A model generated the notes under the pieces. It did no database searches, was not told the origin of the DNA, and saw only the letters and a program-made list of their open reading frames with translations. 64,000 nt of DNA from Allacma fusca (Eukaryota > Arthropoda > Collembola > Symphypleona > Sminthuridae), in NCBI GenBank assembly GCA_947179485.1, contig OX359249.1:49363402-49427401 (forward strand), given 5' to 3'. How positions within the stretch are numbered: position 1 is the first letter of the stretch; each line of letters opens with the position of its first letter. A program made the position numbers and the translations under genes. Below are positions 7,557 to 48,495 of this stretch, piece after piece.

Positions 7557-8100
7557 TTTGTTCGATATTTTATTTGCTTAATCCCATCGAAGAAAAATAT
7601 TTCGAATAATTTTTTTAAAGCATAATCGTACTGATTTGAACTTTGTTAAAAAATTACATTGTACGAAGTATAAAATATATATTAAATTATTTCTCATTAT
7701 TTTACAGATCTGATGAGTCAAATTCCTTTAGGCAATACATATGAATATTATGTTAAATGTGATACAGAAAGAAAAACAATTGCTTAACAAAATGAGGAGA
7801 AAAAAATGCTTGAAAATGGGAAGACGATAAGCATGAGATCGGTTCGGATAAAGCACAAATCCGAACCGTAACCGAACCCAAGTTTGATGTTAATTTTTTG
7901 TCAAAATCCGACATGAACCGTTTTGTTCGATAAAAAAAACTCCTACCCGAAACCGAACCGCCATACATCGGTTCGGATGATTTTTATAACCGAACCGTTT
8001 GTCGGTTATCCGAATAACCGAAACAATACTGCCCATTTTACCAGTGAAAGCTTCATTCGAAACAGATAAATATTTATTAAAATCTGTTTTAATTAAAACC

Positions 8101-8149
8101 AGCATTCAAGCCATCCACCAAGGTGGATGGGAAAACTTGGATTGCAATG
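8101..8149 (+). repeat. About 45-bp segment shared with the 2.7-kb locus
   Basis: AGCATTCAAG followed by CCATCCACCAAGGTGGATGG and GAAAACT.GGATTGCAATG also occurs, inverted, at about 2689-2737 where the LINE RT frame ends. CCATCCACC..GGTGGATGG is a 9-bp inverted repeat with a 2-nt centre. Confidence 0.6.
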
Positions 8150-8949
8150 ATCTGTAATTCATAAAAAAAATATGAAACTAAAATCTGTAACAGTAACCAA
8201 CTTCGTCGCTTATTAATGGCTTTATATATTAATTTTTTTCATTACTTTCCTTGCAAAAAGCTAAATTTAAAAAATTTAAAAGGGGTCAACTCTGGACCGG
8301 TCAGGGTAAAAGAAATAATAAAGGCCTTGATTCCATGCAGAAAGGCCTTTCTATTTATTTGATTATATAATACGTTATTCAAAGTCAAAGTGCCCCGTCA
8401 CTGTCCGACAAAATCAATGGCTTAATATTCACTGTTTTACCTACATTTCATTGGTTTTTGAATTAACTTCACTGTTGTATTGACTTTATCTGTAGTCACA
8501 AATAAGCATCGAATGGAACTGTCGTCGTAGCTAGATATAAAACACACTCTTAAGAAAATTAAACGCATCCTACTTATGTTAGCAGCACTGCCACAGGCTT
8601 TGGTCAAAATTGGATTAGCTGTTTTTTAAAAACTGAAGCCTCTCCTTTTACTACATGAAATCGGTACTCAAAAAATAAATTTTGGAATAAAATTGTTCTC
8701 AAATTTTTCCGGGGCATAAATGTTTTTGAAAAATATTTAAATGCTGTTTAGTAAATAGGTGCTGTATAGGGGGCTCATAAAGTTGTAGTTAAATTAGTTA
8801 GTCATTTTTGCAATTTTAAATTGTCCCTGTTTGTGTTCATTTTGCTGGAACCCATTATTAAAATTATAAGAATTAATCATAAAATGTTATCTATAAAACA
8901 CCCTAATTTTTGACCACGAAAGTGTCAAATGTTTTGAATAATCCAGAAC

Positions 8950-9073
8950 GCTATAAATAAATATTGTTTTAAGGACTTTTTAATCGTTAAATTTACTGAT
9001 TTGTAAAAATGTATGCGGGACCAACTCCCAGCCGTGGTCTAGGGATCAAACTTGGGACATGCGCAGAGCCTTA
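8950..9073. repeat. Interspersed repeat, left flank of DNA transposon
   Basis: The reverse complement matches 23333-23455 (CGCGGCTGGGAG.TTG..CCGCATACAT core). Together with 13458-13640 it makes one copy of the repeat at 23180-23455, split by the transposon at 9074-13457. Confidence 0.7.
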
Positions 9074-9427
9074 CCCTACTAGCACAATACGCCAGTAATG
9101 CGCCCGAATAGCGCCGTTCACTTGCGCTAGATTTGCGCCTGTTTTGTCCAAGCATTTCGACTCTATCCGTGCGCCAATATTCAGGCGCCAAAACCACGCA
9201 GGTTTTAATGCATAGTTAGTGCACAAAATGGACGCATAATGAAAATGCTTATGCAGATAAAAATGGTTCACGTCTTTCGTAATTTTTAAGCTCGCTCACT
9301 ATAAATGTTTGTACAGTATGAAATTAAGCATTTGGCAAGTAAATTTGGCCAAAGTAATACAATATGCTCATATTAAATTTATTGATTTTTAATCATTGTT
9401 ACTACTCGAAATGTAACCAATATTCAA

Positions 9428-11282
9428 CTACAACACCGAAGTATAAGGTATGCATAAACATTTTTCACATGACAAATCTAAAGGGATGAGAACACATTTT
9501 TGTCGTAACAAAGTAATATCGCCAACATAAAGTTTAGAAAATGTATTGTATGTTTTCACAATATTAAGTAAAGAACTGTTGATAGGATATCCTTCAATTT
9601 TTTCAGTTCCTCTATAGAACCTATATGCCAGTTTGACAACGTCCCCATGCTTATAAACATTTACCACCCTAATTAACTTATTATCTAATGTGTAAACACA
9701 GCTGTCAGCAGCGTTGGAACTAACACTAACATTTTTATAGGAATATTTATTTTTCCCAATGAAATGATCAAATGGATTTGACAAAACAACTCTGTTTGCA
9801 CTATCAATTTCTCCCTTGCGCTTTACTACTTGTTCAACACATTTTGATTTATTTCGTAATTAACCTTTTAAATACTGGTTGTAGTTCTCAAAAATAAATG
9901 AACTGAAACAGTCAAGCGCCCCAAAGGTTTTGCAATCATCAGAAAGATGAGACAAAGAGTGAAAATTATATGACATAATTTCCTCTCCGTACAGTCTTTT
10001 AGCACTTTGAATGAATTCTTAAATCAATTGCTTTGCGACAGCGTTGAATTTATCGCAACGAGCTTTCAATGAAAGTAAAATGAAAATTGCACAATGAAGC
10101 TTTGAAAAATGTTGAAACTTCAGTGAAGACAAATGGGGCTTAAGAACACCTAATCCCATGTAAATTAAAAAAGACGGTACTCAGTACCTTTAAAGCGGTC
10201 CAACTCTTTTAGCGACCTTGATTTTCTGGCAAAATCTGATGGAATGTGACCCCGTACAAATTCTAGCATATTTGAAATTACCACAATTTCTTCATAACGC
10301 CAAGCAATACTAAATGAAAATAGTCTAATGGGACAGAATCGATTACATCAAAATTTACTAAGTCGGACAATGGACAATTTCCTAAATGATGTTCTGGCTA
10401 CAACTTTAACCGAAAATTTTCATTTGTACGCTTTGTACATCCCGAATCTACAAATACTACCCTACCCTTACATTTCCCTTCAATAAAGCGTTTCTCACAG
10501 CTATAATACCCTGAATGAATTTTAATATTTTTTATGTAGGCACGAGCCGGGGCGTCAGCAATGACAACTTTTAAGATGAAGTTATACGTTTTATTATTAT
10601 AAGATAATCCATTTTCAGTAAGCACATTGCATTCATTAATGAACTCACTTAAAAAATCAAGAGTTATTTGGCTTACTGTTTCCAGCAAAAATTGAAATTA
10701 TAAAAGGATTTTTGCATAAATTATCAACATACCCCAAAATTGGCCAAAACTGCATGGATCTGCTTTTACTAAGTGGTACCTCGTCTATACCGTGAGATTA
10801 TCTGCAATACTAAAATAATAATACGTTCTACCTAATTTAGAAATTGTACGCACACTACGGGGAGTCCCTAAAATTGTTCGCGCATCCGAATGTATATCTA
10901 ACGATACGTGTTTTTTAAAAATGCGTAATAAGCTATTTACAGCAGTGTGTGAAATTTTATGATGTATGGCCCAATCTGCCAAATCAGATTCAATATCAGA
11001 AATGGAAGAACGATTGTGTTTGTTTTTTACCAAACCATTCTCACCATCTGATTCACTAAATGTAACACTACCACTACTCAGTATCTCTAAATCAATACTA
11101 TCTAAGTAATTATCACATTCGGAGAAACTAGAATAAGTGCTAGATACATTTTCATCACTTCTGGAAAAACTAGAATTATTAGATATGTTACATATGTTAC
11201 TTGGGGGACTTTCAATTGTACGTAAAATGTCTGCGGTCTGTTTTAAAAATTTTCTTCTCTTCGTTCTATTACTTTGAAACAT
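9428..11282 (-). pseudogene. Transposase-like protein, DAPARA/HSGYYSC type
   Basis: Three fragments are in order. 11282-10785 starts at ATG and ends with a TILGTPRSV block. 10688-10398 contains VVIADAPARAYIKNIK followed by HSGYYSCEK, a D-A-P-A-R-A box and a zinc-ligand-like stretch. 9784-9428 is the C-terminal part. Uncharacterised transposase-like proteins of this architecture are widespread in arthropods and cnidarians, usually next to DUF4806 genes. Resemblance to Tnp2/CMC-type transposases is my inference. Frameshifts between fragments, and C-to-R replacement at the second expected zinc cysteine (SCEKR), show that it is dead. Confidence 0.5.
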
Positions 11283-11736
11283 TGTCCTGTTGATGTTGAT
11301 TTCCTCCTTTAAGCGCTTTTGAATTTCTGAAATAATTGATGTAAACCTCCTTTGCCTTTTGATCAGTTAACGTAACAAAATCAGGGTACAGCCGAACTGA
11401 ATCTAAAATAAGATACATATATAACATATTGTTAGCCATATATATCTACATGAGACCAAACATTATTTTCCAACATCACAATCTCAATATTGGCGTATTG
11501 TGCATTGTGTATTCACTATTGTGTAAATCTATGCATAACTAGCTAATAAATAAAGAGTTCGTGTACCAATTATAACTTCTCCTATCTTCAGGGTCTGAAA
11601 ATTCAATTTCTGGTTTTTTCCTGTGTAGTTGATATGACGAGCCAAGCATGAGCTAATGAGCTTTTCGAGAATATTGCGAAAGACTTGCTCGGCTGACTTT
11701 CCCCCTACACGAGAAAGTCTCCGAGTCTATAATTAG

Positions 11737-13055
11737 TCAATAATTTACAGGAGAAAAAATTAAGTAATATTTTTGTACAGACATTAACCCGTCGTGATAA
11801 CCTGAAACCATATCATGTGCGATTACATATCTCGTGAAAACTATTACACATTTAACATGTCTTGTAGGCTTAATGTTTAACACTTTAAACAATACGTTGA
11901 CACTTACCAGCTTGTTTCGGTTTTCCGGCAATTCTAACCACTTTTCAATCTCAATAACATCCGTTTTCGTTTGAAGTGGAAGATCTGGAAGAGATAAATC
12001 TTCTAAATTGGTCACGGACTGCTGTAAAATGCTAACTTTCTGCAGGTCTTGAATTTCCTTCTCGATTGACAAAAGTTTAGCAATGACCACTTTCTGGTAC
12101 CCTGAAAATTGAAAGGCATATAAATACACGTCAAATATGCATTCATTTTTAAAAAGCAAACAAAATCTTTCCTACTTTTGTTTTCGGTCTGCATCTCTTC
12201 AAGCTTAGTCATCAGAGCACTCTGAGCTGTAACAGCAGCAACATTTTCTGGGGGAAAAGATCCTTATTTTATGATAGTACGTAAAAGCTTCAATTAACTT
12301 GCACCATTGTAATATAATCCAATCCATTAGGTACATTAATAAACTTTTCGTATTTTAAGTTGCTGGTTTGTAAATAATCGTAATTAAAACACTTACCGGC
12401 TTCAAATATGTTATCACCTTGAAGGAATGCATCCAAGTCTTTTGACGGTGGTGATGAATGTGTAAAAGATGCACCGGACAATTCCTCCTCAACAGTAAAA
12501 TTCTCTACCCGATCACTCAGGCTGCTCTGCTTGGAACTGCACTGCACTCTATCATTTGAAACTAGTTCAAATCCGGGGTATTTCTTCGGCAGGGGTCTTC
12601 TTTTTTGTTGAATTGATTCTGTCTGTCCAGTCGGTGTCCAGATCAGATTTTTCAAGCAAAATTTCTTGAACCTTGCAAGCGCCTTTAAACGTTTCTGAAA
12701 TACATTTTATGCGAACACAAAAAATGTAATTCATAAATTTTGAAATATTTAATATTATCAATCATCAAGTTAAAAAACGCCAATATATACAATTATGCAA
12801 TTTTATTTACACATAGTTAGTACACCGTATTAATTTTGGATTAAAACTTACGGCATTTTTTCCAAATTGAACGGGGTGTTTCTTCCACTTAACGGTAGGC
12901 TTCTATAGGTTTGCAATTTTTCCTCTAATTGACAAATTAAATTTTTCTGGAAAACTGCATTCCGTTTCTGTTTCAGTCAACCACGATAGTGGTACCACTT
13001 CAACATTTTTCTCCTTAAGAAACTCCACAACAACAAACTCGTTTACACTACTCAT
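11737..13055 (-). pseudogene. DUF4806-domain protein, multi-exon
   Basis: The minus-strand start is at 13055 (MSSVNEFVVVEFLKEKNVEV) with a PLSWLTE block, the typical N-terminus of these proteins. It has an in-frame TAG after about 50 codons. The first exon ends at 12852 with GTAAGT. The next exon, near 12696-12394, gives SDLDTDW and a SPPSKDLDAF block, with a frame change in the middle. The following exons (about 12240-11740) contain a coiled stretch and LPLQTKTDVIEIEKWLE, matching the DUF4806 core. It is probably an accessory DNA-binding partner of the adjoining transposase; that role is inferred. Confidence 0.5.
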
Positions 13056-13457
13056 TGAAATCAACAAATTGTAAAAAATTTGTGGGTTAACTGCACTTAT
13101 TGTTTTTAATGATTGCTTAAAATTTGGAAGTGTAAAAAAACCGTTGCAAGCCTGTGTTGTTTCAAGTCACATTATATGGTCACACTGTTAAATATTAACC
13201 ATGCCGTCTTCCTGCACTATGCGCATGCTTCAACTTATTTTCATTCGCATACAATTCATGCAATTTTTACATGTTATTTGCGCCGTTTGTTTCCAAGCTT
13301 TATTGAAGCCAAGTCTTTTGCGTGTACTTGTGTAAATTTTGCGCTGAATACATAACGCTAATAATGTGCATAATTTTCGCAAAGATTTATGCTTGGCACA
13401 ATTTCGACTCTGGAAGCGTCAAAAATGCGCAATATGAGGCTATGTGTGCTAGTAGGG

Positions 13458-13640
13458 AGTGTGAAATTCAACAGTGCGCTCAACCATGATTTTTTCACGT
13501 GTTTATCGATTTTTTACATTTTAGTTGGCTTTCATTCTGCTATCTATCTAGACTATTATCATGCAGGTTTTAATATGTCACAATGTAACAAACCAAGAAA
13601 GCAAATTTTCCTGCGGAGCAGGGCTTTTACTAGTTTTATT
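13458..13640. repeat. Interspersed repeat, right flank of DNA transposon
   Basis: The reverse complement aligns with 23180-23333, including CCCTGCTCCGCAGG and GATAAACACGTGAAAAAATC. It is the second half of the split repeat whose first half is 8950-9073. Confidence 0.7.
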
Positions 13641-15015
13641 ATATTTTTTGTAAAAAGAAAAGATGTAATCTAAAATGGAATTATTTTTTATCGTTTTGGA
13701 CAGTATGTATACAGTAGCACTTGGTTACTATAACTTAAGCCTGTGCAAGTGAACAAAACAAAATTAAAAAAGAAAAATAATTGTCCATCTTTTCTTTAAA
13801 AAAATTTGTTTGAAATAAAAATCCAGGCATTTTTTCCATGAATAAAAGAAAAAAATTAACCTCTTTGCTTCAACATTTCATGTACATAAGTGACGACTGG
13901 CACTGTTACCATCATCACCTTCATCATCATCAAGACATCCGTTTTCAGATTAGTATAAAGGATGTCGTTCAAACTTAAAACAATTATTACACTAATTTTT
14001 ATCAAATTCTATATCCATTATTTAACTTCAATGACAACTAAAAATCTAAGGACCAAATCTCCAGTAAGACCAAATGGCCTCGCTTTTCAACCTATTTTGA
14101 AGGCTCATTGCTCCCGGTAATTTCTGCTCTTATTACGGAGTCGGAGGTTTCCACTGATGACTGATTAGTTGCAGTAATAAGGCACTTATTTAATTTAAGC
14201 TAAAAAACTAATAGCAAAAAAAGCTTAAAGAGAAGTTGCTTTTGCGCTTTCAAAAGTTAAAAACAAGTTTTATTGTAAATCCTGTCAAAATAAATCTCAA
14301 TATGTTACTGAAAATAGTTAAAATTATTGAAATTACGAAAAGCAACGCCACGAAGGATAAATTGTATAAAAACACTATAACGTTGTATACTCATGTCAAT
14401 ATTATTATTAAATGAGAATTTCTTAGATACCTGTAATGTAATTTATAATTCTCTATTACTTGGGAAATCCTCCAGGGTAGCATTAAACTAAAGCTCCGTG
14501 CGTTACTCTTAAAATTAGCGTGCACGATATAGGCATACCGCAAGTCTATTATGGATAATTTAAATTTAAATCTAATTCTTTAAACAATATGTTGAATTTT
14601 GAAATTCAAATATGTTATGAGGTAGGTATTTATGCATTTGTTTTCGTGGCGTTGCTCGCTTCTGCTCAATCGAAAGAGTGGAAACTTGGTTCAAATGGTC
14701 CTCCGCATTGAATACCTCTGCATTATGTACCACATCCAGCGTATTTATATCGACAATATCGTCATCAAAAAATTGTCAAACGATTCACTCAATTCAAATT
14801 CATTTTCAGCAGTTGCTACTGCTTCTGCCAGTATTATAATACACCTGTTGAGCTCATCTGAAAATCTGAGTTGAATAATGGCGTTGTCGGAATTTGAACG
14901 CAGAGTTAAAATTATGTTGAAAGGCCAAAGCAGATGAAGTATGTCCATTCGTAAAATTTTCTTCCCGAAATGGTAGATACAACAATAAAATTTAGTAATA
15001 ATTTTTGAATAATAA
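13641..15015. other. AT-rich, repeat only
   Basis: No gene is recognised. 14130-14360 is an inverted relative of 22490-22700, sharing GGCGTTGCTTTTCG, TTTTCAGTAACA and GCGCAAAAGCAACTTCT blocks when reversed. It is a low-copy interspersed repeat of unknown class. Confidence 0.5.
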
Positions 15016-17028
15016 TTAATGATCAGTTTGTGTCAGTGGATTAAAGTTGGGAAACTTTACTATAGCATGAAGCACCCTTCTTTGACCAAATCCTTTGCCT
15101 TCTAACAATGGATATTTAGGTCTATCATTCTGCATTGCATTCAATGAATTCCTTATCATAGTCTTCGTCCATGTTGGTGTATGCAGAATTTTTCGACAAA
15201 ACTTAGTACATTGCAACAAACTCAAAAAGGCAAATGTTTTCAAACAAAGGGCTTCGATAGTAGTTATTCGTAGTTTATATATGTCTATGATATTTAAACA
15301 ACGATGGATTCCCAATTGTGTACTTATTCACCATTCTCGTCCTATTTTCCCTCTTGAATGCAGGAAAAAAACGGTAGCGTGGCTTGATTTATGAAGTGGC
15401 AATCTACACGCTCGAAATGCTGCCTCTTGTGATCCCAGCTCTCTCAGTCTCATTATATCCTTAGTCTGTTTGAATAACTTTCTACGGGGATTTTCATTTA
15501 CGTTTTCTTGGGCAAAAGATATCCCATTTCGTAAGGGTACGCGTATTGCTTCAGGTTCTGATTTGCTGCAATTTCAAAGCTAAACTATAATAGAAAAGTA
15601 TTACTAGACTATTGTTGTAAATTTGTTTCGTTACCTCATATACTTCGCTACATTATAGGCAATTGACATTTCATTGGTAACAGCTTGGATATCAATGCTG
15701 CATTTTAGAGCCTGCAATAGTATTGGATGATAATTATTTATCATAGACTCATCCTTGCTTCTCCTGAAATTTATAAATCGTCCTTTGTTTGCATTTGCTT
15801 CTTCCTTGCTTAATACAGCAGTCTCTTTACATTCTGGTTTGGGATAATTGAATCGACACTGGTTATGAATACTTTTATAACAACAGGAGATATGCCTGTG
15901 GGTTTGATGTTTAATCACAGTGTTTCTTAAACCTGTAGTTGTGCTGCATGAAACATTTGAATTCAAAAACGGCACAATTCCTTCATCATTGAAAGTTGGT
16001 GCTTCTGGATTAAAGAATAGGCAATGAACATGATGAAGGCAATGAACTACATGTTTGATTTTTAGTACTTTTTATACCTTGAGAGTTTTGAGGGAAAATA
16101 TCACTTCCCAGGTGAAGTCCACCTTTGAGTACATAAACTTGGTTAGAAATATTCATGTAACTAGAATTTCCAACGAAAATGTCTGAATCAGTTTTTCGTC
16201 TTGATCTTGTTCCAATGATAGAGCGGAAATGGTTGCGCCGTATATGTTGCTGTGGTTTAAATTGATATGGCTGTAAAGAGGATTATTTAGCATTATCCAC
16301 GAAAGAGCTTCTCTTAAAGCGGAAGGCCTTAAAAGCAGTCGTCGGTGTGAGTCTACATTTTCTAGCTTCTGATGGACAACAATTCTTCCAGCATTTTCCA
16401 CTTGTAACGGAAGTTGATTGGGGATTTCTTCAACTGATTTTTGCAAAATGAACCACACTTCCTTTAATACCAAACTGTCCTTTGCCTTTTGCTAGATGAA
16501 ATATTTTCATTTGGTAGTATTTGAGAAACCAGTGAGAGCTCTACGTCTGACAACGCATTAACCATTTCCGGAATATCATCTGGAATCATGAAATTCCATC
16601 GACATTGAGATGAGAGTTTCCCTTTTCTATTCCACTGGTTACAACTGCAGCACAAGTCAACCGAACCGATTATTGGATTGGGTTTTCGGTTATAGCTATA
16701 ATTTGGCGAACGGTTTGCTCTCTTAATTTGCTTTTGCAAGACCTTTAGGAAACATTAATCGATCACAAATGAAGCAAGTGGTGTCCGTTTAAACGGAAGT
16801 TCTTTTCTTGCACATTGCTTCGAATCTGTCAGCAAAACTTGGATGCTGAGCTTTATTCTCATTTGCAGTGACTACATGCAAAGTTGTGGGTACGACAAAG
16901 CTACATGCATTACAAGAAGAATTTATACAATTTTGATTTTCTGGGCATGAATTGTATCTGCGTTGTAAACACCAGGCTTCGTTTCTCACGTAGTTGTAAT
17001 CACATTTTTTACCCACCATTTCTTTCAC
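15016..17028 (-). pseudogene. Helitron Rep/helicase relic, N-terminal half
   Basis: The minus-strand fragments are in order. 17028-16789 is a Cys-rich N-terminus. 16739-16464 contains CCSCNQWNRKGKLSSQCRW and IPDDIPEMVNALSDVELSLV, the start of DUF6570. 16473-16153 ends with LRPSALREALSWIMLNNPLY, the DUF6570 end. 15975-15631 carries the Helitron helicase-like signature: a HTHRHISC cysteine block, INNYHPILLQ, SIDIQAV and AYNVAKYM. 15315-15016 gives NDRPKYPLL and AIVKFPNFNP, the segment downstream of Rep. Frames are broken at each junction and the Rep tyrosines are not found. The PIF1 half is absent here. A PIF1 tail of this type sits at 63 kb. Confidence 0.7.
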
Positions 17029-17719
17029 AACCTAACATTGAAAATAAATTACAGCTTCATGATTTCACTAAACTCTCTTAAATAACTAAGATTTCAATTT
17101 TGACCTGACTCCATATTTTAAACGTAAAATATGCCATATGTGCGAACTCATTTTCATGCGTCCTCCACTTTTGAACTAATTCTTTAGAACGGCAAGAATG
17201 ATTGTGACGCTTGTTATTCACACAGAAAATTTCACACAGAAAATTTCAGCATGCAAAGCCTTTTAATAAATTCGTCCTCCAGCTGTAAATTTATTTGAAG
17301 AAATCGAATATTAATGTATAATTTTAAATACAATTAGTTTTCCCGTAACTGTGATGTAATGTACATATAATCATAAAATCAGTAACATTTATTCAACATT
17401 TAATTACACTTTGCAATTACACAACTAACAGTGAACAGGCGTTATTTAAGTAATTATTTGTGTGTGTCGTATTGTGCAGCAAAACTTTCAAGTTCGTAGT
17501 CCTCAACTTTATCTAATAATTTCTCCACAACTTGTATAACGTCAGGCGTAACGTCCGCCCAGTCATCAAACTTATTATTTGATAGAGTCATTATAACTTC
17601 TCTCTTTATTTCACAATTTATTTTCACTTCGACAACTTTTTCTTTTTTTATTTCGTCGTTCGTCAATATGTTGGTTGTACAGTAGTTCATTACAGCGTTC
17701 ATCACATCACACATCCTGT

Positions 17720-18855
17720 TCCATGAATTGAAGCAAGTACTCCTTAACAGGAGGGCTTAAAGTGAATTTTAACTTATAAGCTTTTGTCGCGCCTTCATCA
17801 AATTAAGTTTCGCCCTTTTCACGGATTTGTCCATCATATCAATAATTTATATAGGTATTACATAATTACCTTTACATTTAATCTTAATTACAAAACCACT
17901 GAGATAGAAATTTTTTAATGTACATAATGCTAACCTTTAAGTGGAATAATCTCAACCCAGAAATCACAATGGTTTTTACTTCCAACATAATTCTGTCACA
18001 GTTTCTCCCAGAGACTATTCTCAGTAAGTGTAATTGTGATGTGATTGTCAAGTAACCTTTGTTTTCATTCATCATCACATTCCCCATCTCCTTGCTCCGA
18101 CTTAATAATATTATCCTTTAGATCTTCAATAAGCTGCTATTTCATGATAATAATAATTTTTTGCAAAACAGTTGGTAGATAATTGTCAAGGACCAATCAG
18201 CAACAACGTAATTCTATAAAAACTGGTAATCCAACTTAAGGATTCAACGAATATTTAAGGGGTGACCCCTTAAAGATCACAACTTCAAAATTTGGCATTC
18301 ATCTCCTAGTTATAAAAAGCGTCTCATTATTAAATTTCATGCAAATCCGATTAGTGAAACACCCTCAAATATTTTCCAATGCTAAATGAACTGTATCCAT
18401 GCAGCTGAAATTCTCCATTTGCCTCCAATTTTTGTTTATTTTTGCGAAGGGCTCTACGACTTTAAGGATCACACAAACAAATATTTACGGAGATTCGCCT
18501 TTGTCTCCCATTGACTTTAAGCTTTTGATACTGGAGTAACATCAAACTGTTCAGGAGATATCGGGTAAAGTCACTTTTTGAGGTATGGGTGAAAGCATAG
18601 AACTTGCTTTTAGGGATTCTGGACAGACCTGTGCATGCACGCAGACCTGGGCACGTAACCTTTTAAAGCAACTTCTCAAAAATTAAATAACGGTGTTAGA
18701 AATAATTGCGATGTGATGAACAAATGTATGCCCGTTCGTGGACCATACGTTGTGCTTTCTAAATATATTGCAGATACATAATGAAACAATCGTTTGTCTC
18801 GAGAAATTCAGGCTACAGCCATTCTCGATTACGATTGGCTAAACATTGTAGGAAC
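17720..18855. other. No recognised gene
   Basis: AT-rich DNA between the Helitron relic and the right subterminal zone of the large hAT-like element. Only short frames without motifs are present. Confidence 0.4.
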
Positions 18856-19407
18856 GAAATTCAAAATCCGTTTAACGGAACGGTTAAATTCATATATAAA
18901 ACCGATCCGAAACCGATATTCGGTTGGACATTGACATATCAGAACCGTTCGGTTATTTCAATATTGTTGCAACTTTTGTATCCAAACCGTCGGTTTCAGT
19001 TAACCGATGGTCGGATAACCGCGTTAAACCGAACCGATCTCATGCTTAGAAGACGCCAATTTGATTGTGAGAACTTCGGAAAGAAAGCAACAATTACGAC
19101 CAAATGTCCGTTATCAGAAAATGTTCGATGAAACGGGTGTAGTAAAAACATTTCACATAACATGACGTTTTCTATGAATCGTGTAGGGAGTGAAAGGTTG
19201 TCACAAATTGTTTTTTCAAACACTGTGTTTGTTGTTAAATATCCTTGCACGCACCCCCTAACCCTCAAGGGAGTTACTCATAGACTCCAATAGATTGTAG
19301 CTTTGTTCTGCATTTTCGAATGTTGTGTTCAATGGCATGTTCAAATAGGGGAGACGGGCATGAACAAGAATCGAATTATTATTTACTATTTTGAATACAT
19401 CAATTGT

Positions 19408-19791: not shown

Positions 19792-19799
19792 ACTAGCGG

Positions 19800-20474: not shown

Positions 20475-20842
20475 TAAAGGCGTGGCCCGCAGGCCATTCC
20501 CCAAACCAACCCGAGTATTACCCGCAAACCGTCAACCTCTGAAACATCGGCCCGCCCCATCCAGACCGTAATTTTTTAGGCCCGCGCCAGACCGCAGCCC
20601 GCCAGGTTTCAGTTGACATGAACCGACCCAGCTTGCGGGCCCGCACTGGGGCCCGCCAATGCTTACTGACACGCTATAGCATTCCCCCGTTGAGAGACCC
20701 AGCCAGTTGAAATACGATAAAAACACACCCCGATCCACAACTTGCAACATGACAAAGCACTAAACCCAAACCCTCCCATAACCCGCACAGGTGGGTCGGG
20801 GTTAAGCCCGACCCGAATTTTTACCCGCGGGCCACGCCTTTA
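20475..20842. mobile_element. hAT-like MITE with CCCGC words
   Basis: The terminal inverted repeat TAAAGGCGTGGCCCGC is exact at both ends. The flanks CTCGGCGT and CTCCGCGC agree at 6 of 8 positions. The 368-bp body is unusually GC-rich for this window and dense in ACCCGC/GGCCCGC words on both strands. It is non-coding. Confidence 0.65.
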
Positions 20843-25768: not shown

Positions 25769-27005
25769 TAGTGCCCCTCATGGGTACAGGTTTTACCCGG
25801 GTATTTGGGTACAGGTTCAGGTACAGGTACGTATCAGGTACAGGTACGTATCAGGTACATACTTCTTGTACCCATCCAATTTGGGTACAGGTTCAGGTTC
25901 AGTCGTTAGATACCTGAAAATTCAGGTTCAGGTTCAGGTATGGGTACAGGTACAAAAAGTAATCTTTTGGGTATAAACCCATCAGGTACGGGTACGCACT
26001 GGGTAAATACCTGAACCTGAATGTAAAATACCTGAACTTTCAGGTACTTTTCAGTCAATAATAATTTCCAAGTAACGCCTGTAAAGGTGTTGTTGAGCTT
26101 TAAAAACTCCTCCGAATTTTTGACCTTGAAACATTTTACATTAAAATTTATACGTATAAACTCAGTCAGGAAAACTAATTCCACCTTATAGGAACACGTG
26201 GCTAGTTACCCAGCATTAGCTGGAATGACCAGAGATTTTTTATCAGTTCCTGGAACTGCTAAAGAACAGAGATCTAAGATTGAGCGAGCCTTCTCCTATG
26301 GCCCAGATCTTCTGACGCATAAACGCTTATATAAGAGTGGAGTTACGGTAGGAAATGTTTTTGTTTCAAAGCTTGGCTGAAGTTAAAATCTGAGGAGTTT
26401 GAATCTAAAAAATGTTTTCCATTGCAAAAGCAATTGCAGGGTGCAAAACAAATTCTTAATCGTTTAATTTCTTGCCATTATTGAACGTTTAGAAAATATT
26501 ACACTGCATTTGTATTGTTGGACTGAACTTATTTATATCGTAGGTTTTGCTATCTATTATCCTTTTCAACCTTTATGTAATCATTTTTAGCCACTGATAA
26601 TTCCAGTACTTAGTCATTCTTTCGAAGAGTAAATAATAAAAATATATCTAATCTGATAAATAAATTTATTGAGTCAAAATGTCTTGGTCGCAGATATTTT
26701 AATTTTTTATTTCGTGTAAAATATTTGGTAATCCTTTAAATTTGTACAATGGAAAATACCCGGGTAGGTTCAGGTACTTTTAAAATATACCCGGGTACAG
26801 GTACTTTTTTGGGTACTTTTTGGGTACAGGTACTTTTCAGGTACAGGTACTCCTGATTTGGTTTGAGTACAGGTACAGGTTCAGGAAAATTGAACCCGGG
26901 TATTCAGGTACAGGTACGGGTATAGGTTCAAAAAATCCATGTACCCATGATTCAGATACAGGTTCAGGTCCAGGTACAACATTTTTGTACCCATGCGGAG
27001 CACTA
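25769..27005. mobile_element. hAT element, GGTACAGG-word type
   Basis: A perfect 8-bp target duplication ACTAGAAC lies at 25761-25768 and 27006-27013. The ends TAGTGCCCCTCATGGGTACA and TAGTGCTCCGCATGGGTACA match 18 of 20. Both subterminal zones (25785-26040 and 26755-26990) are filled with GGTACAGG/GGTTCAGG/CCTGAACCTG words. The insertion interrupts the gypsy relic. Confidence 0.88.
26198..26380 (+). pseudogene. hAT transposase C-terminal dimerisation remnant
   Basis: The open peptide YPALAGMTRDFLSVPGTAKEQ with a following RAFSYGPDLLTHKR matches the hAT dimerisation signature (YP.L..MA.D.L.IP.T....ER.FS....L.T..R). Only about 60 residues are left, inside the element's middle. The conserved E-R before F-S reads ERAFS. 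Confidence 0.7.
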
Positions 27006-30991: not shown

Positions 30992-33040
30992 TAGGCCTCC
31001 GCTCATGTACAACTCAGACATGAATGTTTCATGTTTGACTCATGTCTCAACTCATGTTCATGTATCTGAATATCGAGTCACAAACCATTCATGTGCATTT
31101 AAAACATACTTGACAACAGACATGATTTTTCAAGTCATGTCTTATGTCATGTGCAGGTTACCTTGAAAACATGACAATATTTTCATGTACACTTTCATGT
31201 TCACAAAAGCGGAAGACATGAACTCAAGCTCAAAAACACGAATATTTTCATGTCACCACAAAGTATGCTACTAATAGCCAAATGTTTCCATGTCGTTCAA
31301 TTCCTTTATCGTATTAAGCGTCATTTTAAGTTGTGCACTGACACTATTAAGGAAAAAGAAGGTTCAAATATGACCGAAAAAGCACCTGGAAGTAGCAGTA
31401 TTCAGGAAATTGGCATTTTTGGAAGAATTTCAAGAATTGCCATTAAAAAACGTTAAGAAACAACGATCAAGTGTACATAATCATTTCACACTCGAGGAAG
31501 GAAATATCTGGAGATATTATTGTGTACGTACAATTTAGTTAGCGGCAAGGACAATGAATACTTTGCTTTTAGATACTCCCTTAAAGTTGAAGCAAATTCG
31601 GGAACCGGATATTGAAGAAGGCCTTTAGTCCTTTAGCATCACAAATCAATTGATTTAAAGAAAGAACCTGTCGCAGACCACAAGGGTGCAATTGTAGAAG
31701 CATTTGCTAAACAAGCTAGTGTTATTCCTAGAGCTTCCAATGTGTTCAACATTTTTGTTCCGTACGAAATTCCGTTCCGTTCCGAAACCTACAAATAATA
31801 TTGTTCCCGGTTCCGTTCCGGCTGTCGGGACATCGGAACATTTGAACTGACACCGTTCGGAACAAAGTAGTAAAGCATTTTTTCCGTTTCAGGTTGTGTT
31901 CCGTTCCGTATTATGCTAGTTTTTCCGTTCCGAACCCGTTCCGTTCCGAAATATCCCGGAATTTTTTACAACATATGAAATGCGTGTACAAATTACTGGC
32001 AACTTAATATATGTACATGATATACTTTTAATATAATTATTGAATGCTAGGGAATGCTATTATTTAATTATATAAAATAATATTTAATAATAATTATGCC
32101 ATATAAAAAGAACTACTTTTCAGCATTATATAATTATTATTATTTATTTTTTAGCAATAAATATTTTTAGCGTGTGGACTTCAATGGCCTAACAGTGTTA
32201 ATTTCCTGCAAGCTTGCTTCATTGCTGCTAATAATTTCGATTTCAGAATTTTAATTTCGAGAAAAATCGTCCATGCCCATTTTTATTAAACAAAATTAGT
32301 TATTCTGTTGATTTTCATGGAAAACGATACTCGCATTACATATAAGCATTTGCGTAAATTAAATCTGTGTTCATTCAATTTCGCTATTTTGGCAAAAAAC
32401 TGCTTACAAGCCAGAGCGATAAGAAATGTGTTTCCATTCTAGTTGAACGATGGCGCGACACTTCAGAAATTGTACCGGGATCGGTTCGGAACGGAACAGA
32501 ACAATTCCGCTTTCCGATGACATAAATTATATGGGACATTTTTCGTACCGATGCTCCGAACCGTCCCGGTCCCAATATTATCGGTACAAGTGCTCATGTT
32601 CCGGTTTTGTGCCGATTCAATGACGGAACCAAAAAGAATGTTCCGAAATTGTTCCGTTCCGTTTCCGAACACGGAACTTCGGGATTTCGGAAACCCGAAG
32701 GAAGCTCTAGTTATTCCCTTATTGCGGGAATCCGAATCTCTCTTGTTGTGTACTTTCTTAAATATAAGCTTAATAACTCTTCTGAAATTTAGTTCATGTC
32801 ATCATGTTCATGTACATGTTCATGTCCAGTTCATGTACTTGAAATTGCCACTTTTCATGTTCATGTAAATGTCATGTTCATGTGTGCTTTATTCACATGA
32901 AATAAAAATCAAGTATTCGTTTTGAATCACATGATTTAATTCGTGTAATTTTGAAAACAACTCATGTAAAACATGAAAATTCATGTTCATGTTCAAGTTC
33001 ATGTTCATGTTTAAGAAAATTGTACATGTGCGGAGGCCTA
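30992..33040. mobile_element. hAT-like element, CATGTTCATG-word type
   Basis: Target duplication CTCCAGAC (30984-30991 and 33041-33048) is perfect. Ends TAGGCCTCCGCTCATGTACA and TAGGCCTCCGCACATGTACA match 19 of 20. Subterminal zones (31005-31255 and 32790-33030) are dense in CATGT/TTCATG words. Removing it restores the BEL integrase frame at E-A-C-M-N-S-R-P. The middle (31260-31728) has no recognisable transposase and is split by a second hAT. Confidence 0.85.
31729..32709. mobile_element. hAT-like element, GTTCCG-word type (nested)
   Basis: Target duplication GTTATTCC (31721-31728 and 32710-32717) is perfect. The first 10 bp TAGAGCTTCC are inverted at the right end. Both ends are packed with GTTCCG/CGGAAC words (31755-31960 and 32480-32690). 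The 500-bp AT-rich centre is non-coding. It is the youngest layer of a hAT in hAT in BEL stack. Confidence 0.85.
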
Positions 33041-35670: not shown

Positions 35671-35673
35671 ATT

Positions 35674-39636: not shown

Positions 39637-39654
39637 AACGCAGAAGAGAGAGTA

Positions 39655-40986: not shown

Positions 40987-41176
40987 ACCTACTGACAAAA
41001 TCCTCATTTTTTTCTCAGCCACGAGTAGACCAGTACCTTATGCTGGAGCGTCAGCTCTGTAATCCGAAAGGAAGCTTGGAACTGTGGATGCTATGGTGTG
41101 AAAAATGTCTCACGGGTTTTGTCATTTACTTAGTTGAATAAATAAAAACATATTTTTAATATTTTGCCGGCCAGAC

Positions 41177-41668: not shown

Positions 41669-41673
41669 TGAAC

Positions 41674-41990
41674 ATTTTAATAATTTATTACTATTATATG
41701 GACTTATAATAGGTTCATGGGGTTCATGTGTGTACAATTGAAAGTTGTGAGGGCACTCACAAGGGCGAGGGAGAGGATTTTATTTTAAAATTACCACCTC
41801 ACGAGGGTGAGGACAAGTACACTCCATTTTTAAATTGCTGCGAAGCTGCAATAATCTTTTTGATTCCTTCATGATTTACTCTTGACAATCCTACGAAATC
41901 CACCTGCAAGTCCAACCAACGAGATCTGATTCACTAACACAAGATCATAATGACTTGTAGTTTCCGAAGAAGTTAGCTGGAACACAGGCT
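41674..41990. other. No recognised gene
   Basis: A short interval between the BEL element and the next. It contains CACTCACAAGGGCGAGGG and CACCTCACGAGGGTGAGG words, possibly a remnant of a word-rich element end. Confidence 0.4.
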
Positions 41991-42008
41991 ACAAAATATG
42001 GCATAACT

Positions 42009-42125
42009 TAATTCCTAACGACCCGAATCTAACGACTAACGATTTCCACTAATTCCTAACGACCCGAATCTAACGACTAACGATTTCCACTAATTCCTAA
42101 CGACCCCAATCTAACGACTAACGTT
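42009..42125 (+). repeat. 41-bp tandem repeat, about 2.8 copies
   Basis: Units start TAATTCCTAACGACCCGAAT at 42009, 42050 and 42091. The unit contains the element's own terminal sequence plus CGATTTCCAC. Copies are almost identical. Confidence 0.88.
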
Positions 42126-42184
42126 GTCATTGTCATTCCTTACAGACTCGTTGTTAGTAGATTTTCCGTCGGTGCAAGTATTGG

Positions 42185-42415
42185 GAATAACCGAACTTGC
42201 GATTACAATTTAAAATTGATAATGCAAGCACCATTAATGCCGTAACTGGTACTTGCTAAAATGCGGCAATTAAATCGTGCAAATAACCGAAGTTGAACTT
42301 GCAATTATTTCATAAGTTACTTGCAGTTGGTAAGGCAATTGCAAAAACAGTTGGATATAATTGTACCAACAAGTACAATTGTAAGTGCAATTGCAATTTC
42401 TAATTGCAAGTTAAC
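42185..42415. mobile_element. Small element rich in ACTTGCAATTG words
   Basis: Both sides carry ACTTGC/GCAAGT and CAATTGCAA words. The left AACCGAACTTGCGATTACAA and the inverted right AGTTAACTTGCAATTAGAAA are similar. Target duplication is not resolved. It resembles the word-saturated ends of the hAT-like elements. Confidence 0.4.
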
Positions 42416-43131
42416 TGATACACAATATAAATCGTCGGCGAAGAGACAAAATGATCTGTGCATTTTTGATTGGTAGCAAAATAATATACATGCTGTTTCA
42501 CTAAATTGAACAAAGTGTATTAAATAAAATAATCTAGATGCAATGCACAATGAAACAGAGATGCACAAATGACATTGCCGAAATAGCACTGTGACTGGAT
42601 GTTGCGCAAATTTATGGTGAATTTTAGGTGTTTTATTTGCTGGTTTTAATTTTTGCTTAATATTTACGCTTAAAATGCCATAACGCATTTTCGAATATTA
42701 AACGCATGTAGTTGAACGTTACATAAACGTTACGAGGAAAACTAATTTATTGGACTATTCATCCGCCATGATAGGAACGTAATCTTGCTAAATAGGACCT
42801 ACTACATTGTGAAGTGTATCGCCTGCGTCTTTTGATGTGAATATTTTGTGGTTACAGGTAATTTAATTAATCATTAACGATAATTAACCGTATAATTTAA
42901 TGCCGAAATATAGCGATAGACACATAAGAAGACTCGCCTCCAGCTTTGCTCAAGACTACTCAAAACTGAAACCATCAAACAAAAATCAATCAAGTAAATG
43001 TGAAGTGAATAAATCCGGAAAAAACGTTAAATTTACGTTACTTTCGTAATGCATGCACGCTATATATGCGTTATATTCACGCAACGGTGCTACTTGGGTG
43101 CTTTCCTTCAAAGCTTCCAAGGCTAAAATAT

Positions 43132-43843
43132 TGTGACGAGATATTATGATGGTTCTTTTAATCTCGTGCCCAAGTTCGGATGAGTCGATAATTGTGTGTA
43201 GTGGATAATGAGAATAAAATACTCGTGGATAAAAATAGGTTTATACTGGATAATAATCTGTTAATAATTTATTCTACATAAAATCAAGGATGAAATTGAA
43301 ATAAAATGATAAGGAAAATCTTAAGATCTAATTCTTTGTGTTGAAATCTGTAGTTGAAAGTCTCTATGATTTACAATAGGATCCAAGTATCTATTCCTAT
43401 TGTAAATCTCTGCTGGGCTGTCCATCTTCGATTCTTGGGCAGGGGCCGAAATGGAATAGGATCTGTGTACGCGAGCTTTGATCCAATCCATCCGAGAGCC
43501 TCCCAAGAACTTACTGTCTTTTCTTGCTTGACTTAACCTAAGGTTTTGGTCTTAGCCTATTTACATGTTATGTACATAATTACATTAATAGCATTTCATC
43601 ATAATTATTGTTTATAGAAACAATGAAATGTATTAGGATTAATTGTCTTCACATCCTGTCTCATATCATGCCTTCCATCAGATTCTGCTGAGTGGAAGTG
43701 CTGACGGGTCTAAAGGATAGATCTTCCTTCTCAGATCTGCAGATGTGGATTAATTATTTATGCTAACGTGCCATATTCGCGATCTTTGGTCACGTAGACT
43801 CCTCTCGTCACGTAACTTCAGGTGTACAATTTGGGATGTAACA
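43132..43843. mobile_element. Candidate solo LTR
   Basis: It begins TGTGACGAGA and ends GGATGTAACA (TG...CA with near-inverted TGTNAC tips). It is flanked by ATAT on both sides (43128-43131 and 43844-43847). No internal coding region is present. ATAT duplications are common for gypsy-type insertions, but four bases give limited support. Confidence 0.45.
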
Positions 43844-43849
43844 ATATTG

Positions 43850-45180
43850 TAAAATTTCAATCAATTTGAGGTTTAGCTATATAATAATGTTTCATACTAA
43901 ATCACAAAACAGTATCTTTAAAGAGACAATTTTATGAAAATCAAATTATTTTACATGTTATATTATTAGGACCTCGTTCGCATACATGATGATGCATGCT
44001 TATAAGACTCCGCGAGCAAACATTATTGTAAAAATCCAACACAAAAACATTTGAGACTGACAAGAGTTCCATAGTTTAAACACCGGACATCAGCAACAAG
44101 TAACTTTTGCATTGAAAAATTTTGAACTCCTACAATTAGTGTTTTACTTTGAGCAATAAAATTACTATAGAAGCTCCAAGTTTTGAAATATTGTACAACG
44201 GCAAGTTCGTAAGTTATAAAATCCAAAATTCATTACTAATGAAACTTCATTTTGTATAGATATTTTTGTGTTGTATTCCTTGTACTATTGTTAGGTATGT
44301 ACTGTAACTACGTAGAATAATTAAGTACTCCCAGGAGTAAAGGAATGAGTTGTGAATACTCACAACCTTAGGTTAAGCCAATTCTAATTTTAGAAGTAAT
44401 GGATAAAGTAATTAAAATGAACATTTAAACAAAGGTGCAGAGTAAGCACTTCTGCACGGCTAAGGCCAACAAGTGTCAACGTCCGGTTACGTCCTGTGAG
44501 ATGTAACGTCTAGACTTAAGAATGTAAAAATCGGCTCCAGTAGCCACTTGTTAAGTTTAAGACTTCCAGACTCTTCAGTGAATAACTGAGTCATTCCTGT
44601 AACATCTAATTTTAGTTGTTCCATCTTCGTTTCATCGTTCTTTTAATTTCCGTTTTAATAAAAGCCAATTAGTCTTCGGATTAATGTAAAAGTTCACCCA
44701 AGTCTTTATTCAGTCTTGTCCTTCATTCAGCACGATTATTAATTACTTACAAATCACAGATTACTCCATATTTCTTATCAATTCAGTACGTAAGTAATCC
44801 ATGAGTTAGTCTTGAATGGCATGTCCAAAAGCAACTCTTTCACTATTATCAAAATTTGAATTATTCACAGGCAGCGGTCAAATCTTTCTTTTAAAACCCG
44901 TGTAGCCTTTTTACATAATAGAGTTGAGTATTTGCAACTTTTGAAAGCAAATGAATATTGCAAAATGTTTAAGGATATTTGAAATCTTGAATCTCTTAGC
45001 CCGTTTTTTAAACCACGGACAATAATGAATTAAGACAATTGGATTTCTTTTTGGAAAATCAACATTAAAACTTTCTTCAGACTAGATGGGCTTGAAAATG
45101 TCATGCAAACTCCCATCTTTAAGCTGGAGGATCAATACTGGTCATAGTGTATATATGTTTCCAATCCTCATTTTCATATG
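43850..45180. other. No recognised gene
   Basis: Non-coding. 44294-44840 has an LTR-like look (TGTTAGG start, AATAAAAGCC, a CTAT on each side), but the ends do not pair, so it is not called. Confidence 0.35.
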
Positions 45181-45185
45181 TTTTT

Positions 45186-45343
45186 TGCCAAAATGCCGAA
45201 AATCTTGCCCAAAATGTCGAATATGCCGGCCTTTTTTCAAAGTAAGTCATTTCCAGGAGATTTTCGGCGTTTTTGGCATTTTCAGGGCATTTTCAGGTAG
45301 GCAGGCATAATACCCAGGGCATTTTCATTTTTAGAACCCTGAC
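45186..45343. mobile_element. Truncated hAT-like end, GGCATTTTCAGG words
   Basis: GGCATTTTCAGG and CAAAATGCCGAAAA words fill the interval. It ends AAAAATGAAAATGCCC-like, with CAGGGTTCT in reverse, a common hAT tip. The matching left end is missing. Confidence 0.35.
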
Positions 45344-45478
45344 AATAACCACAACATTTTAATGACAGTGTGCATATTTTTCACGTGAGCATCCGCTTCA
45401 CGCTATACGAGGTTTCAGTAACCGGTAAATTTGAGCAATGATTAATCGTTTGGACTGCAATTCAGAGTAAACAATACA

Positions 45479-45588
45479 ATTCAGTCCAGCAGTGTGAACT
45501 GAATCGTTCGGTTCGGTTCAATATGTGAACCGAATCGAAAAAACTACGAATCGAATTGAATCGAAAAATTTCGGTTCTGGACTGAATT
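45479..45588. repeat. Small foldback with GGTTCGG words
   Basis: Arms ATTCAGTCCAG (45479-45489) and CTGGACTGAAT (45578-45588) are exact inverses. The inside carries CGGTTCGGTTC and GAACCGAATCG words. Confidence 0.7.
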
Positions 45589-45604
45589 ACGAATAACGAC
45601 CACT

Positions 45605-46341
45605 ATTAGAGAGTGATCGTTAGTGGTTAGAGAGTTATCGTTAGTCGTTAGAGAGTTATCGTTAGTCGTTAGAGAGTTGTCGTTAGTCGTTAGAGAGTTG
45701 TCGTTAGTCGTTAGAGACTGATCGTTAGTCGTTAAAGACTGATGTTAGTCGTTAGAGACTGATCGTTAGTCGTTAAAGACTGATGTTAGTCGTTAGAGAC
45801 TGATCGTTAGTCGTTAACGACTGAGCGTTAGTCGTTAACGACTGAGCGCTAGTCGTTAAAGACTGATCGTTAGTCGTTAACGACTGATCGTTAGTCGTTA
45901 ACGACTGATCGTTAGTCTTTAAAGACTGATCGTTAGTCGTTAAAGACTGATCGTTAGTCTTTAAAGATTGATCGTTAGTCGTTAAAGACTGATCGTTAGT
46001 CTTTAAAGACTGATCGTTAGTCGTTAAAGACTGATCGTTAGTCTTTAAACATTGATCGTTAGTCTTTAAACATTGATCGTTAGTCGTTAAAGACTGATCG
46101 TTAGTCTTTAAAGATTGATCGTTAGTCGTTAAAGACTGATCGTTAGTCTTTAAAGACTGATCGTTAGTCTTTAAAGACTGATCGTTAGTCTTTAAACATT
46201 GATCGTTAGTCTTTAAACATTGATCGTTAGTCTTTAAACATTGATCGTTAGTCGTTAAAGACTGATCGTTAGTCGTTAAAGACTGATCGTTAGTCGTTAA
46301 AGACTGATCGTTAGTCGTTAAAGACTGATCGTTAGTCGTTA
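45605..46341 (-). repeat. 21-bp minisatellite, about 35 copies
   Basis: The unit is CGTTAGTCGTTAAAGACTGAT with variants at a few positions (GTC.TTAAA.A.TGAT). Because 21 is divisible by three and the minus frame lacks stops, it reads as an open heptapeptide repeat (TNDQSLT/TNDQCLK) in a 246-residue frame at 45773-46513. This is most likely an artefact of repeat length, not a gene. The unit derives from the terminal repeat of the surrounding 4.4-kb element. Confidence 0.93.
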
Positions 46342-46764
46342 CATTCGTGTCGTTAGGAATTAGGGTGTGCCACAAAATATCTTTCCATATGAATCTGTCA
46401 AGGAACATACAATAACTATGAACCCCTATAGCATCTACGGAGGGAAGTAAAAAATATTCGATTCTCCCATATTTTAGCAGTTCGTTTAAAAAATTTGTTG
46501 TTTTTAAATACATACATATTACATCTCACTAGTTTGAAAACTCGGGATGCGACGGTCAAGGAAAAGGTCCAAAGTAGGGAAGCTCGTATCAAGTTCGGCA
46601 AGGTTATAAGTTTTTTTACTAATGAATAAAATAATAACATTATAATAATAAATTAATGAGAAATTATTCTTGAACTCCCCGAGACATGATTTACAACGGG
46701 CTCTAGTATAAATTTCAAGAGCACTACAATCGTCTAGCTTTCACATTCTCCGGTTAGTATCTAC

Positions 46765-48495
46765 CAGTGGTCGTCACGGGAACGGGTAAAACCCGGGTAC
46801 ATGGGAACGGGAACGAGTACAGGAATGGGTACGGGAGCAAGTACTTTGTTCCCAACCAGTTTGGGTACGGGAACAGGAACACACTCAAGTGAACCGAGAC
46901 ACCGGGAACAGGAACCGAGATTTTCATTTTGTTCCAGTTCCCGATAGGAACGGGTATAGTCTACGCATGATCCCGTTCCAATACCTCTTGTTCCCGGGAT
47001 CGAGTGGGTACTTTTACCATCTTCTAGAAACGCACTCAAAATTGATCTTGGAAGACTTTATTTATGTAGACAAATCAATTTGCGTATTACATTCATTCTT
47101 TTTTCCTGCAATTTCTACACACATATCCTTGCCTTAAAGATAATAATGTTAGAACTCGTGTTTCAGTACAATTGCGATATTTTCTAGAATATTTCTACAA
47201 GTTAATCTAATAAATATAATAATAATAATTATTATTAGTTTATACGTTTACTGCAAGTTTTATCCTTGAAAAATTGATTGCTCGAGTTAAAGTTTTGTTT
47301 TCAAATAAAGCTAACAAAGGGAACTGATCTGTGCTGGCGCTGGCTTATATTTTTCAGATATATTTTAAATGCAGAATAAATATCTTTGGGTCAGCAATTG
47401 ATCTTAAATATTGAGTACCGTTTTGAAACCCTCATCAACTTGGAATTTTATTATTTGAAGAGCATCATCAATACTCCATTCATTCCTTTCCCAGTATGGC
47501 ATTTTAAAGTGTTGGTATTCGGTCTACTCGGTACATAATCTCTGAAGAATTAAACAATCAGTTATTACGCCGTACGTTTCGCTATGGGGGAGCGTTTCGC
47601 CGCCCTGCATATTGTCTGTTTTAATCTGCAAAACGAAGGGTTTGGTGGTTACAGAAATCCTGATAATAATTTTTACCGTACTAATTGTAAGTACAATACG
47701 ACTTGGACCCGGGAACAGGACTGGGAACACCAGTTTGTGGGAACGGGTACGGGTCCAGAATAGGGGTGAGTATCTCGCTGGTTTTAAAGTTCTCGTTTAT
47801 CTCGTTCTCGTTTTTGGAAATATACGAGAACGAGATATTTTGAAAACGAGAGTAGCGAGAGTAAGCAATTAACGAGACAAACGAGACAGGAAAAAAACAT
47901 GGTTTTTATTGAACTATACAATACTTCATTGTAAACACAATATCTGACGATAGAACGGGCAAGTTTCATTAATTTTACTAATAGAAACAATCACAAAAGG
48001 CAAGCTGTTTATTTTTGAGTATAAACCATTAACTTTGAAAGCAAATAAAGGTCTTGAAAAATATAAATGAACACCTCTAACAGTAAATATTAGGAAAAAG
48101 CGTTAAACAGATTAGTAATTGTCTCAATGATAAAAAAAACGCCCTAATTTTTAGCTTGTTACGGAATCAAGTAAGAATTAATTCTAAACGATATTCTCGG
48201 TTAATAAAACGAGATGTCTCGCCCTCTCTCGTTGATGTAAAAAGCACGAGACAAACGAGAATCTCGTCTCGTTGTCTCGTTATGCTCACCCCTAGTCCAG
48301 AACATTCATAATTTCTGGGTACGGGAACAGGAACGGGTCTGGGTACGGTTTTTTATTAAATTCATGGGAACGGGTACCTAAAATACTGTTCCCATCATAA
48401 CGGGAACGGGTCCGGGTACGGGAACACTTAAAGAGAGTACCCATTGAGTCGGAACAGGAACGGGAACAAACCTTTTCTATCCATGACGACCACTG
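46765..48495. mobile_element. hAT-like element, GGAACGGG-word type
   Basis: The ends CAGTGGTCGTCA are exact inverses. Subterminal zones (46777-47010, 47700-47755 and 48310-48475) are full of GGGAACGGGTAC/GTTCCCG words. The 8-bp flanks GTATCTAC and GTACACAT agree poorly (4 of 8), so the duplication is eroded or absent. A second hAT is nested at 47761. No transposase is recognised. Confidence 0.65.
47761..48294. mobile_element. hAT-like element, GAGACGAGA-word type (nested)
   Basis: Target duplication GTCCAGAA is perfect (47753-47760 and 48295-48302). The ends TAGGGGTGAG are exact inverses. The first and last 130 bp are filled with CGAGAACGAGA/TCTCGTTTGTCTCG words. It is 534 bp and non-coding. 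Confidence 0.88.

Follow-up and report, generated by a model that had tools for sequence, protein, structure and literature searches.

hAT transposons have inverted tips of 5 to 27 bp, with nnnTAnnn as the target duplication consensus of the Buster group (PMC3517528), and that their transposases bind short subterminal repeats is in print (PMC3143072, PMC10368747, PMC3260210); here and below, statements on published systems refer to the parts of the cited articles available to us. Ac/Ds of maize combines 11-bp inverted tips, 8-bp duplications and deleted derivatives with many transposase-binding AAACGG hexamers in its terminal 200 bp (PMC3260210). In Hermes of the housefly, BED domains bind short subterminal repeats, of which the first, at about bp 15-18, lies just inside the tip; about 220 bp are needed per end, compared with 200 and 150 bp in Tol2 of medaka and at least 200 bp in Ac (PMC10368747). 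Tol2 carries AAGT motifs and a AAGTACTT palindrome right after its tip (quoted in PMC10368747). In Herves of Anopheles gambiae, subterminal CG/AATTCAT is repeated at both ends and is sufficient for transposase binding; binding sequences vary among hAT elements, giving specificity (PMC3143072). Here we describe seven elements, A to G, in 64,000 nt (the window) of Allacma fusca contig OX359249.1, positions 49,363,402-49,427,401, and their relatives in the 392.7-Mb host assembly. They are very probably non-autonomous members of the hAT superfamily, in some cases clearly derived by internal deletion, whose arrays of a short word, about 230 bp per end, are predicted binding sites of the family's own BED finger, in many copies for oligomer docking. 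Word similarity tracks transposase similarity, and the ends of sister families align without gaps, with letters swapped inside the words.

Word arrays at the element ends

The commonest hexamer of both end zones was compared with 1000 dinucleotide shuffles. Its count exceeded all shuffles in C (19; shuffle maximum 13), D (30; 9) and E (20; 13) and lay above the 99th percentile, although not above the shuffle maximum, in A (12; 12), F (16; 17) and G (14; 18); in B, 6 copies against a 99th percentile of 8 were not significant. When one hexamer common to both ends was scored, 0 of 200 shuffles matched A, C, D, E, F or G, and 200 of 200 matched B. The initial annotation had proposed at least seven elements of one design with word-saturated ends, which stands for A and C to G, with their paired tips and word-filled ends, and is weak for B. 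Two of its words had to be replaced: GAGACGAGA occurs once in the zones of G and ACGAGA 15 times, and in those of A GGTTCGG occurs 7 times and AACCGA, the commonest hexamer, 15 times. Windows of 250 bp with at least six copies of one hexamer fall on the ends of A, C, D, E, F and G and also at tandem arrays at 41.9-42.3 and 45.6-46.3 kb, with weaker hexamer-rich patches near 24.3, 30.2, 42.2-42.5, 45.1-45.4 and 59.6 kb. Word copies are often in tandem at a spacing of 5-6 bp, and outside the words left and right ends are dissimilar (19-30% ungapped identity over positions 31-200). Neither of the refuting outcomes named in the initial annotation occurred: the arrays are bounded by tips and duplications and are not stray microsatellites, free of tips, duplication or any relation to element ends, and tips and 8-bp duplications are present in copies elsewhere.

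The same architecture recurs in the host genome, which has at least 150 hAT dimerisation-domain matches above the Pfam cut-off. Among 36 loci retrieved by position around such matches, 24 have tips and a duplication (7-8 of 8) around the transposase (14/20, 1/4, 5/6 and 4/6 by batch); the 14 include L027, whose outer tips are those of C and enclose a nested hAT. This nested element (L027 1903-5840) is of the L022 type, with word ACGTTA, and both duplications are perfect. When L009-L028 were scanned blindly for tips, duplication and a word common to both ends, 19 elements emerged, versus 0, 0 and 0 in block shuffles; tips with fewer than four different letters were dropped, which removes G. In the two-end test, 34 of 37 elements beat all 200 shuffles, the failures besides B being L010b (3/200) and L023 (117/200), whose word is a triplet repeat, a type that this test excludes. 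L015 carries, nested in the TAGTGCTGTAAT hAT, an element at 3025-3945 whose tips read CAGWGCTTCTG and whose duplication, GCAGCAAG, is perfect; its CGGGAC array reads as proline-rich open frames.

Coverage was taken from 29 elements (58 ends; near-duplicates, window A, B and D and L023 excluded), each word being picked from positions 41-220 alone. Word coverage is 0.21 at positions 1-20, 0.41 at 21-40, 0.52 at 41-60, 0.24-0.38 at 61-220, 0.20 at 221-240, 0.10 at 241-260, 0.06 at 261-280 and 0.01-0.05 farther in, and the first word copy starts at 10-18 in 37 of the 58 ends. The arrays thus start just inside a tip of about 12 bp and fade at about 240 bp, a length similar to the published end requirements of Hermes, Tol2 and Ac. 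Thirty-five perfect duplications prefer T at position 2 and A at position 7 (40 of 70 symmetric counts), which we take to be an Ac-family pattern; the Buster consensus does not fit, positions 4 and 5 being mixed (A 11 and T 12 of 35).

A universal core, GTWC plus two family letters, was suggested by the window and is lacking in the genome families with CGGATA, ACGTTA, GTAGAG and others; it is a feature of some families only. GTTC is enriched in five of the seven window families and common to the top hexamers of four, which 354 of 20000 random sets reach. A common 6-bp lattice of GTWC/GAAC sites (clusters at 16, 29, 35, 41, 47 and 53) was also rejected, homology of related ends being the better explanation.

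Co-divergence of word and transposase

Our results support a co-divergence of transposase and word. The transposase tree has 13 of its 19 inner branches starred and long-branch warnings on L014, L015 and L022; its clades and their words are L022/L031 (ACGTTA, ATAACG), L015/L016 with L023 (TTGTAC, TTGTTG), L009/L013 with L014 (GTAGAG, GTAACG, TGAACT), L017/L019, L018, L021 and L026 (CGGATA, CGGATA, CGGTT, CGGAT), L033/L037 (GAGTAC, GACTTG), L041/L043 (GGACCA, CTGTTC), and L034, L035, L036, L040 and L042 (CAGTTC, GATTCA, CGATTC, CGTTTC, CAATTC). Copies at least 90% identical have their words in common. Within clades, at about 49-59% identity, words are identical or closely related, mostly one or two letters apart, and in the looser groups (37-46%) they clearly differ. 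Transposase similarity correlated with the end spectrum (Mantel r 0.64, p 5e-5) and gave r 0.12 (p 0.13) with interior DNA; 19 of 22 full elements were used, L015, L019 and L043 being excluded as >90% copies. The left and right spectra have a cosine of 0.69 within an element versus 0.07 between families, and the best match is the correct one in 15 of 19 cases. Of the rapid co-evolution initially suggested, co-divergence is thus supported and "rapid" is not: CGGATA is retained between L017 and L018, whose transposases are 58% identical, and words within a clade are mostly only one or two letters apart.

In-place rewriting of the words

We compared 1860 end pairs gap-free at zero shift over positions 14-62, with 218 shifts as null; the following results come from the best 22 of the 1860. 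The best 21 pairs have identities of 0.59-0.84, each matched by 0 of 218 shifts; in 20 of them both members belong to the same transposase clade, window A being placed with its relative L021, and the remaining pair is window C with F. Sister families with only about 50-59% transposase identity have ends that align base for base. Rotation was a poor null, since homologous blocks stay intact under it. In 16 hand-chosen pairs, repeated same-letter changes were compared with 2000 nulls at the 1% level. Between A and L017, AACC is exchanged for ATCC four times inside words (0/2000 nulls); between L036 and L040, same-letter changes recur five and eight times at the two ends (0/2000 each); and one end of L034 and L040 shows four (10/2000). 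It is this in-place rewriting that is worth pursuing; the elements themselves are ordinary in kind and the set is unusually rich.

BED finger features (cysteine pair and/or recognition helix) were seen by eye or by pattern in 20 families, without a Pfam BED match, and the six residues preceding the zinc-binding histidine were read in 20 families. In the Mantel set plus D, helix similarity adds little to what the remaining protein sequence tells about word similarity (partial r 0.21, p 0.009). L016 and L023 differ in one helix residue (K to D) and also in their words. The link between finger and word is only suggestive.

Genomic copies and transposase-bearing relatives

The tips of C to G were searched in the host genome with up to two mismatches on both strands, the reversed pattern serving as control. 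Forward and reverse matches numbered 389+404 for C (793 in total), 230+215 for E (445), 166+172 for F (338), 151+140 for G (291) and 91+85 for D (176), against 0+1 in the control for E and 0+0 in the others. Perfect duplications flank other copies of C (L027), A (L021, L025) and E (L053 and L054, 2/2); the two F copies match at 8/8 (L051) and 7/8 (L052). Among five D loci, L047 and L048 have perfect duplications, as does L045 when the far end L050 is used; in L046 and L049 the far tip is absent from the retrieved stretch. The L045/L050 copy of D is 4397 bp long, has duplication ATCTAGAG and includes both a BED-like finger and the C-terminal part of a hAT transposase. Window D is 92-93% identical to it at the ends and 89-94% in inner pieces and is therefore an internal deletion derivative. 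The ends of window A are 86-88% identical to those of the hAT-bearing L021 and L025. A hAT transposase with a C-terminal dimerisation domain is found in these A relatives and in the 4397-bp D copy, and as a remnant in C. The transposase-bearing relatives of A and D carry the same tips and word; the initial annotation had proposed a search for such copies. Its hAT-like assignment is supported directly by transposase relatives for A, C and D, and by tips, duplications and copy number for E, F and G.

Two further observations concern host contig C1. At C1:66107827 there is a G-like tip, some 665 bp away from a hAT dimerisation-domain match, that likely marks a transposase-bearing G relative. Eleven F tips in one orientation occupy about 1 Mb (63.12-64.14 Mb), suggesting segmental or tandem duplication.

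Elements of the window

Table 1. Elements A to G and transposase remnants in the window; a duplication sequence is given where all 8 bp agree
Feature	Position	Strand	Inverted tips	Duplication	Word	Description
A	7828..19048	-	TAAGCATGAGATCGGTTCGG; 20 bp, perfect	7/8 (GAAGACGA/GAAGACGC)	AACCGA/CGGTT	deleted hAT, later insertions inside
B	20475..20842	.	16 bp, perfect	6/8		368 bp, C+G-rich; hAT identity and word not established
C	25769..27005	+		ACTAGAAC	GGTACA/CAGGT	hAT deletion derivative
hAT dimerisation-domain remnant in C	26192..26350	+				Pfam PF05699, E 0.026-0.039 (below cut-off)
D	30992..33040	+		CTCCAGAC	TCATGT	hAT deletion derivative, contains E
N-terminal transposase remnant (BED region) in D	31443..31726	+				short matches with hATs of the genome; read likewise in the 4397-bp D copy
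E	31729..32709	.		GTTATTCC	GTTCCG	non-autonomous, nested in D
F	46765..48495	.	12 bp, perfect	none in window (4/8)	GGGAAC/GTTCCC	contains G
G	47761..48294	.		GTCCAGAA	ACGAGA	non-autonomous, nested in F

In all seven elements, 10-14, or 11-14 by count, of the first 14 bases agree between the two ends, and four duplications are perfect, as first noted (Table 1). When the flanks of C, or of D, are joined with one copy of the duplication, a frame stays open across the junction, so both boundaries are exact; the restored frame resembles retrotransposon pol (named by eye). A blind window scan for exact duplication plus tip gave 8 matches, C, D, E and G among them, a tally that by itself is not decisive because ten shuffles give 0-6. 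The remnant in C matches L044 at 43% over 53 aa (E 2e-10 in a small local database); it had no PDB sequence match, and public viral contigs gave neither a relative of it nor an exact tip match. A Pfam search of the broken D and F interiors returned nothing.

Frames in A at 9428-12706 and 15631-16071 (minus strand) are unlike hAT and gave nothing above the Pfam cut-off; one A-interior frame is presumably Helitron-protein-like, which Pfam did not confirm. The further members once suspected at 42185-42415, 45186-45343 and 45479-45588 show only weak partial tip and 8-bp duplication matches and were rejected. A minisatellite at 45606-46341 consists of 35 copies of the 21-bp unit TTAAAGACTGATCGTTAGTCG; nearby, at 42009-42123, is a 41-bp array related to it, with TAACGACTAACGA. 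No tips were found at either. Perfect 509-bp inverted arms (62632-63140 and 63492-64000) surround 351 nt, and the window holds 200 N; the arms are possibly an assembly scar.

Discussion

Tips, 8-bp duplications, two-ended arrays fading at about 240 bp, genomic copies, transposase-bearing relatives with BED-like fingers, the parallel between word and transposase similarity, and gap-free sister ends with letters swapped inside words were all observed directly. We infer from them that the N-terminal BED zinc finger most likely reads the word of its family, and that the array would give multivalent docking, by which an oligomeric transposase could hold both ends and pass over other families. Deleted copies would depend for their movement on a partner that shares their word and acts in trans. 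Once the finger had changed, many sites could then take up one and the same letter change, the words being rewritten stepwise.

Slippage near transposon ends, producing microsatellite-like expansions with no binding role, would agree with the many tandem copies at 5-6 bp spacing and with the plain triplet word of L023. It is very unlikely, however, given the same word at both ends and on both strands, an array that fades at about 240 bp across families, words that exceed the shuffles in 34 of 37 elements and go with the transposase clade, and left and right ends that are otherwise dissimilar. Clade-wide words might instead reflect common descent of the ends only, with neither selection nor co-evolution. 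The gap-free alignment of sister ends is what descent predicts, and the repeated-change test was not significant at 1% in 12 of the 16 pairs, C with F and C with D among them. Yet ends are alignable at about 50-59% transposase identity, interior DNA has no such signal, and the same letter is altered at several sites between A and L017 and between L036 and L040; we regard descent alone as improbable. Binding of the words by a host protein (a promoter, chromatin or silencing factor) in place of the transposase would be in line with Hermes, whose ends need in cells an unidentified feature besides the BED sites (PMC10368747). A host factor would favour one word, whereas the observed word follows the transposase clade at both ends, which leaves this reading very little room.

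Several points weigh against binding by the family's own finger and a joint evolution of finger and word. The repeated same-letter change was significant in only 4 of the 16 pairs. For B, E, F and G no transposase-bearing partner was found. The unrelated L014 and L034 have a word-spectrum cosine of 0.69, and L013 is similar to L022 and L031 (0.48-0.49); reuse of words is therefore also possible. The word is private to a family, as initially claimed, in that it differs between transposase clades, but not in the case of L014 and L034. In the protein, 19 of 355 ordinary six-column windows equal the BED-helix correlation, and the helix did not stand out as the sole word-tracking part. L036 and L042 have identical six helix residues and different main words, although L036 also has CAATTC 13 times. 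In Hermes, repeats beyond 50 bp can be mutated with about 70% of activity retained (PMC10368747).

Building on binding by the family's own finger, we tentatively propose a recognition code, which we consider possible rather than probable. The families would have one end architecture in common (tip, first word at about bp 12-15, array of about 230 bp) in which sites stay fixed and letters are rewritten in concert, each rewrite being tied to one or two BED-helix residues, so that specificity would evolve by stepwise co-substitution over dozens of sites. Candidate examples are TTNLKK with TTGTAC versus TTNLKD with TTGTTG, and TANMKN with CGGTT versus TGNMGY with CGGATA. How a DNA-binding enzyme shifts its specificity when dozens of sites must shift too is a hard question, and this genome offers a natural record of a protein and dozens of its binding sites changing together. 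Ends are mapped here for about 20 transposase-bearing hAT families, the end sites of several sister groups can be matched letter for letter, and the BED helices are readable, which makes direct finger and word swap experiments possible. The set could also help to predict orthogonal hAT gene-transfer tools.

Comparison with known systems

Family-specific subterminal repeats of hAT elements are already known, and the elements described here are new members of a known superfamily. Among the titles and abstracts that our searches of the openly accessible literature returned (subscription journals and preprints lie outside this coverage), we found none on gap-free sister-family ends with in-place word rewriting. 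The elements resemble Hermes in the short subterminal repeats that begin just inside the tip and in the length of the ends; unlike them, Hermes uses the word AAGT and sparser sites (17 and 14 in ends of 449 and 464 bp; PMC10368747). Tol2 is similar in the length of its required ends and in motifs next to the tip, and differs in having another word and being one family. Herves likewise repeats its binding sequence at both ends, but it is one family, described without sister-family site alignment in the part of the article cited here (PMC3143072). The likeness to Ac/Ds extends to short inverted tips, 8-bp duplications, deleted derivatives and terminal regions rich in one hexamer; Ac/Ds is a single family with a single word, whereas here about 20 transposase-bearing families with different words occur in one genome.

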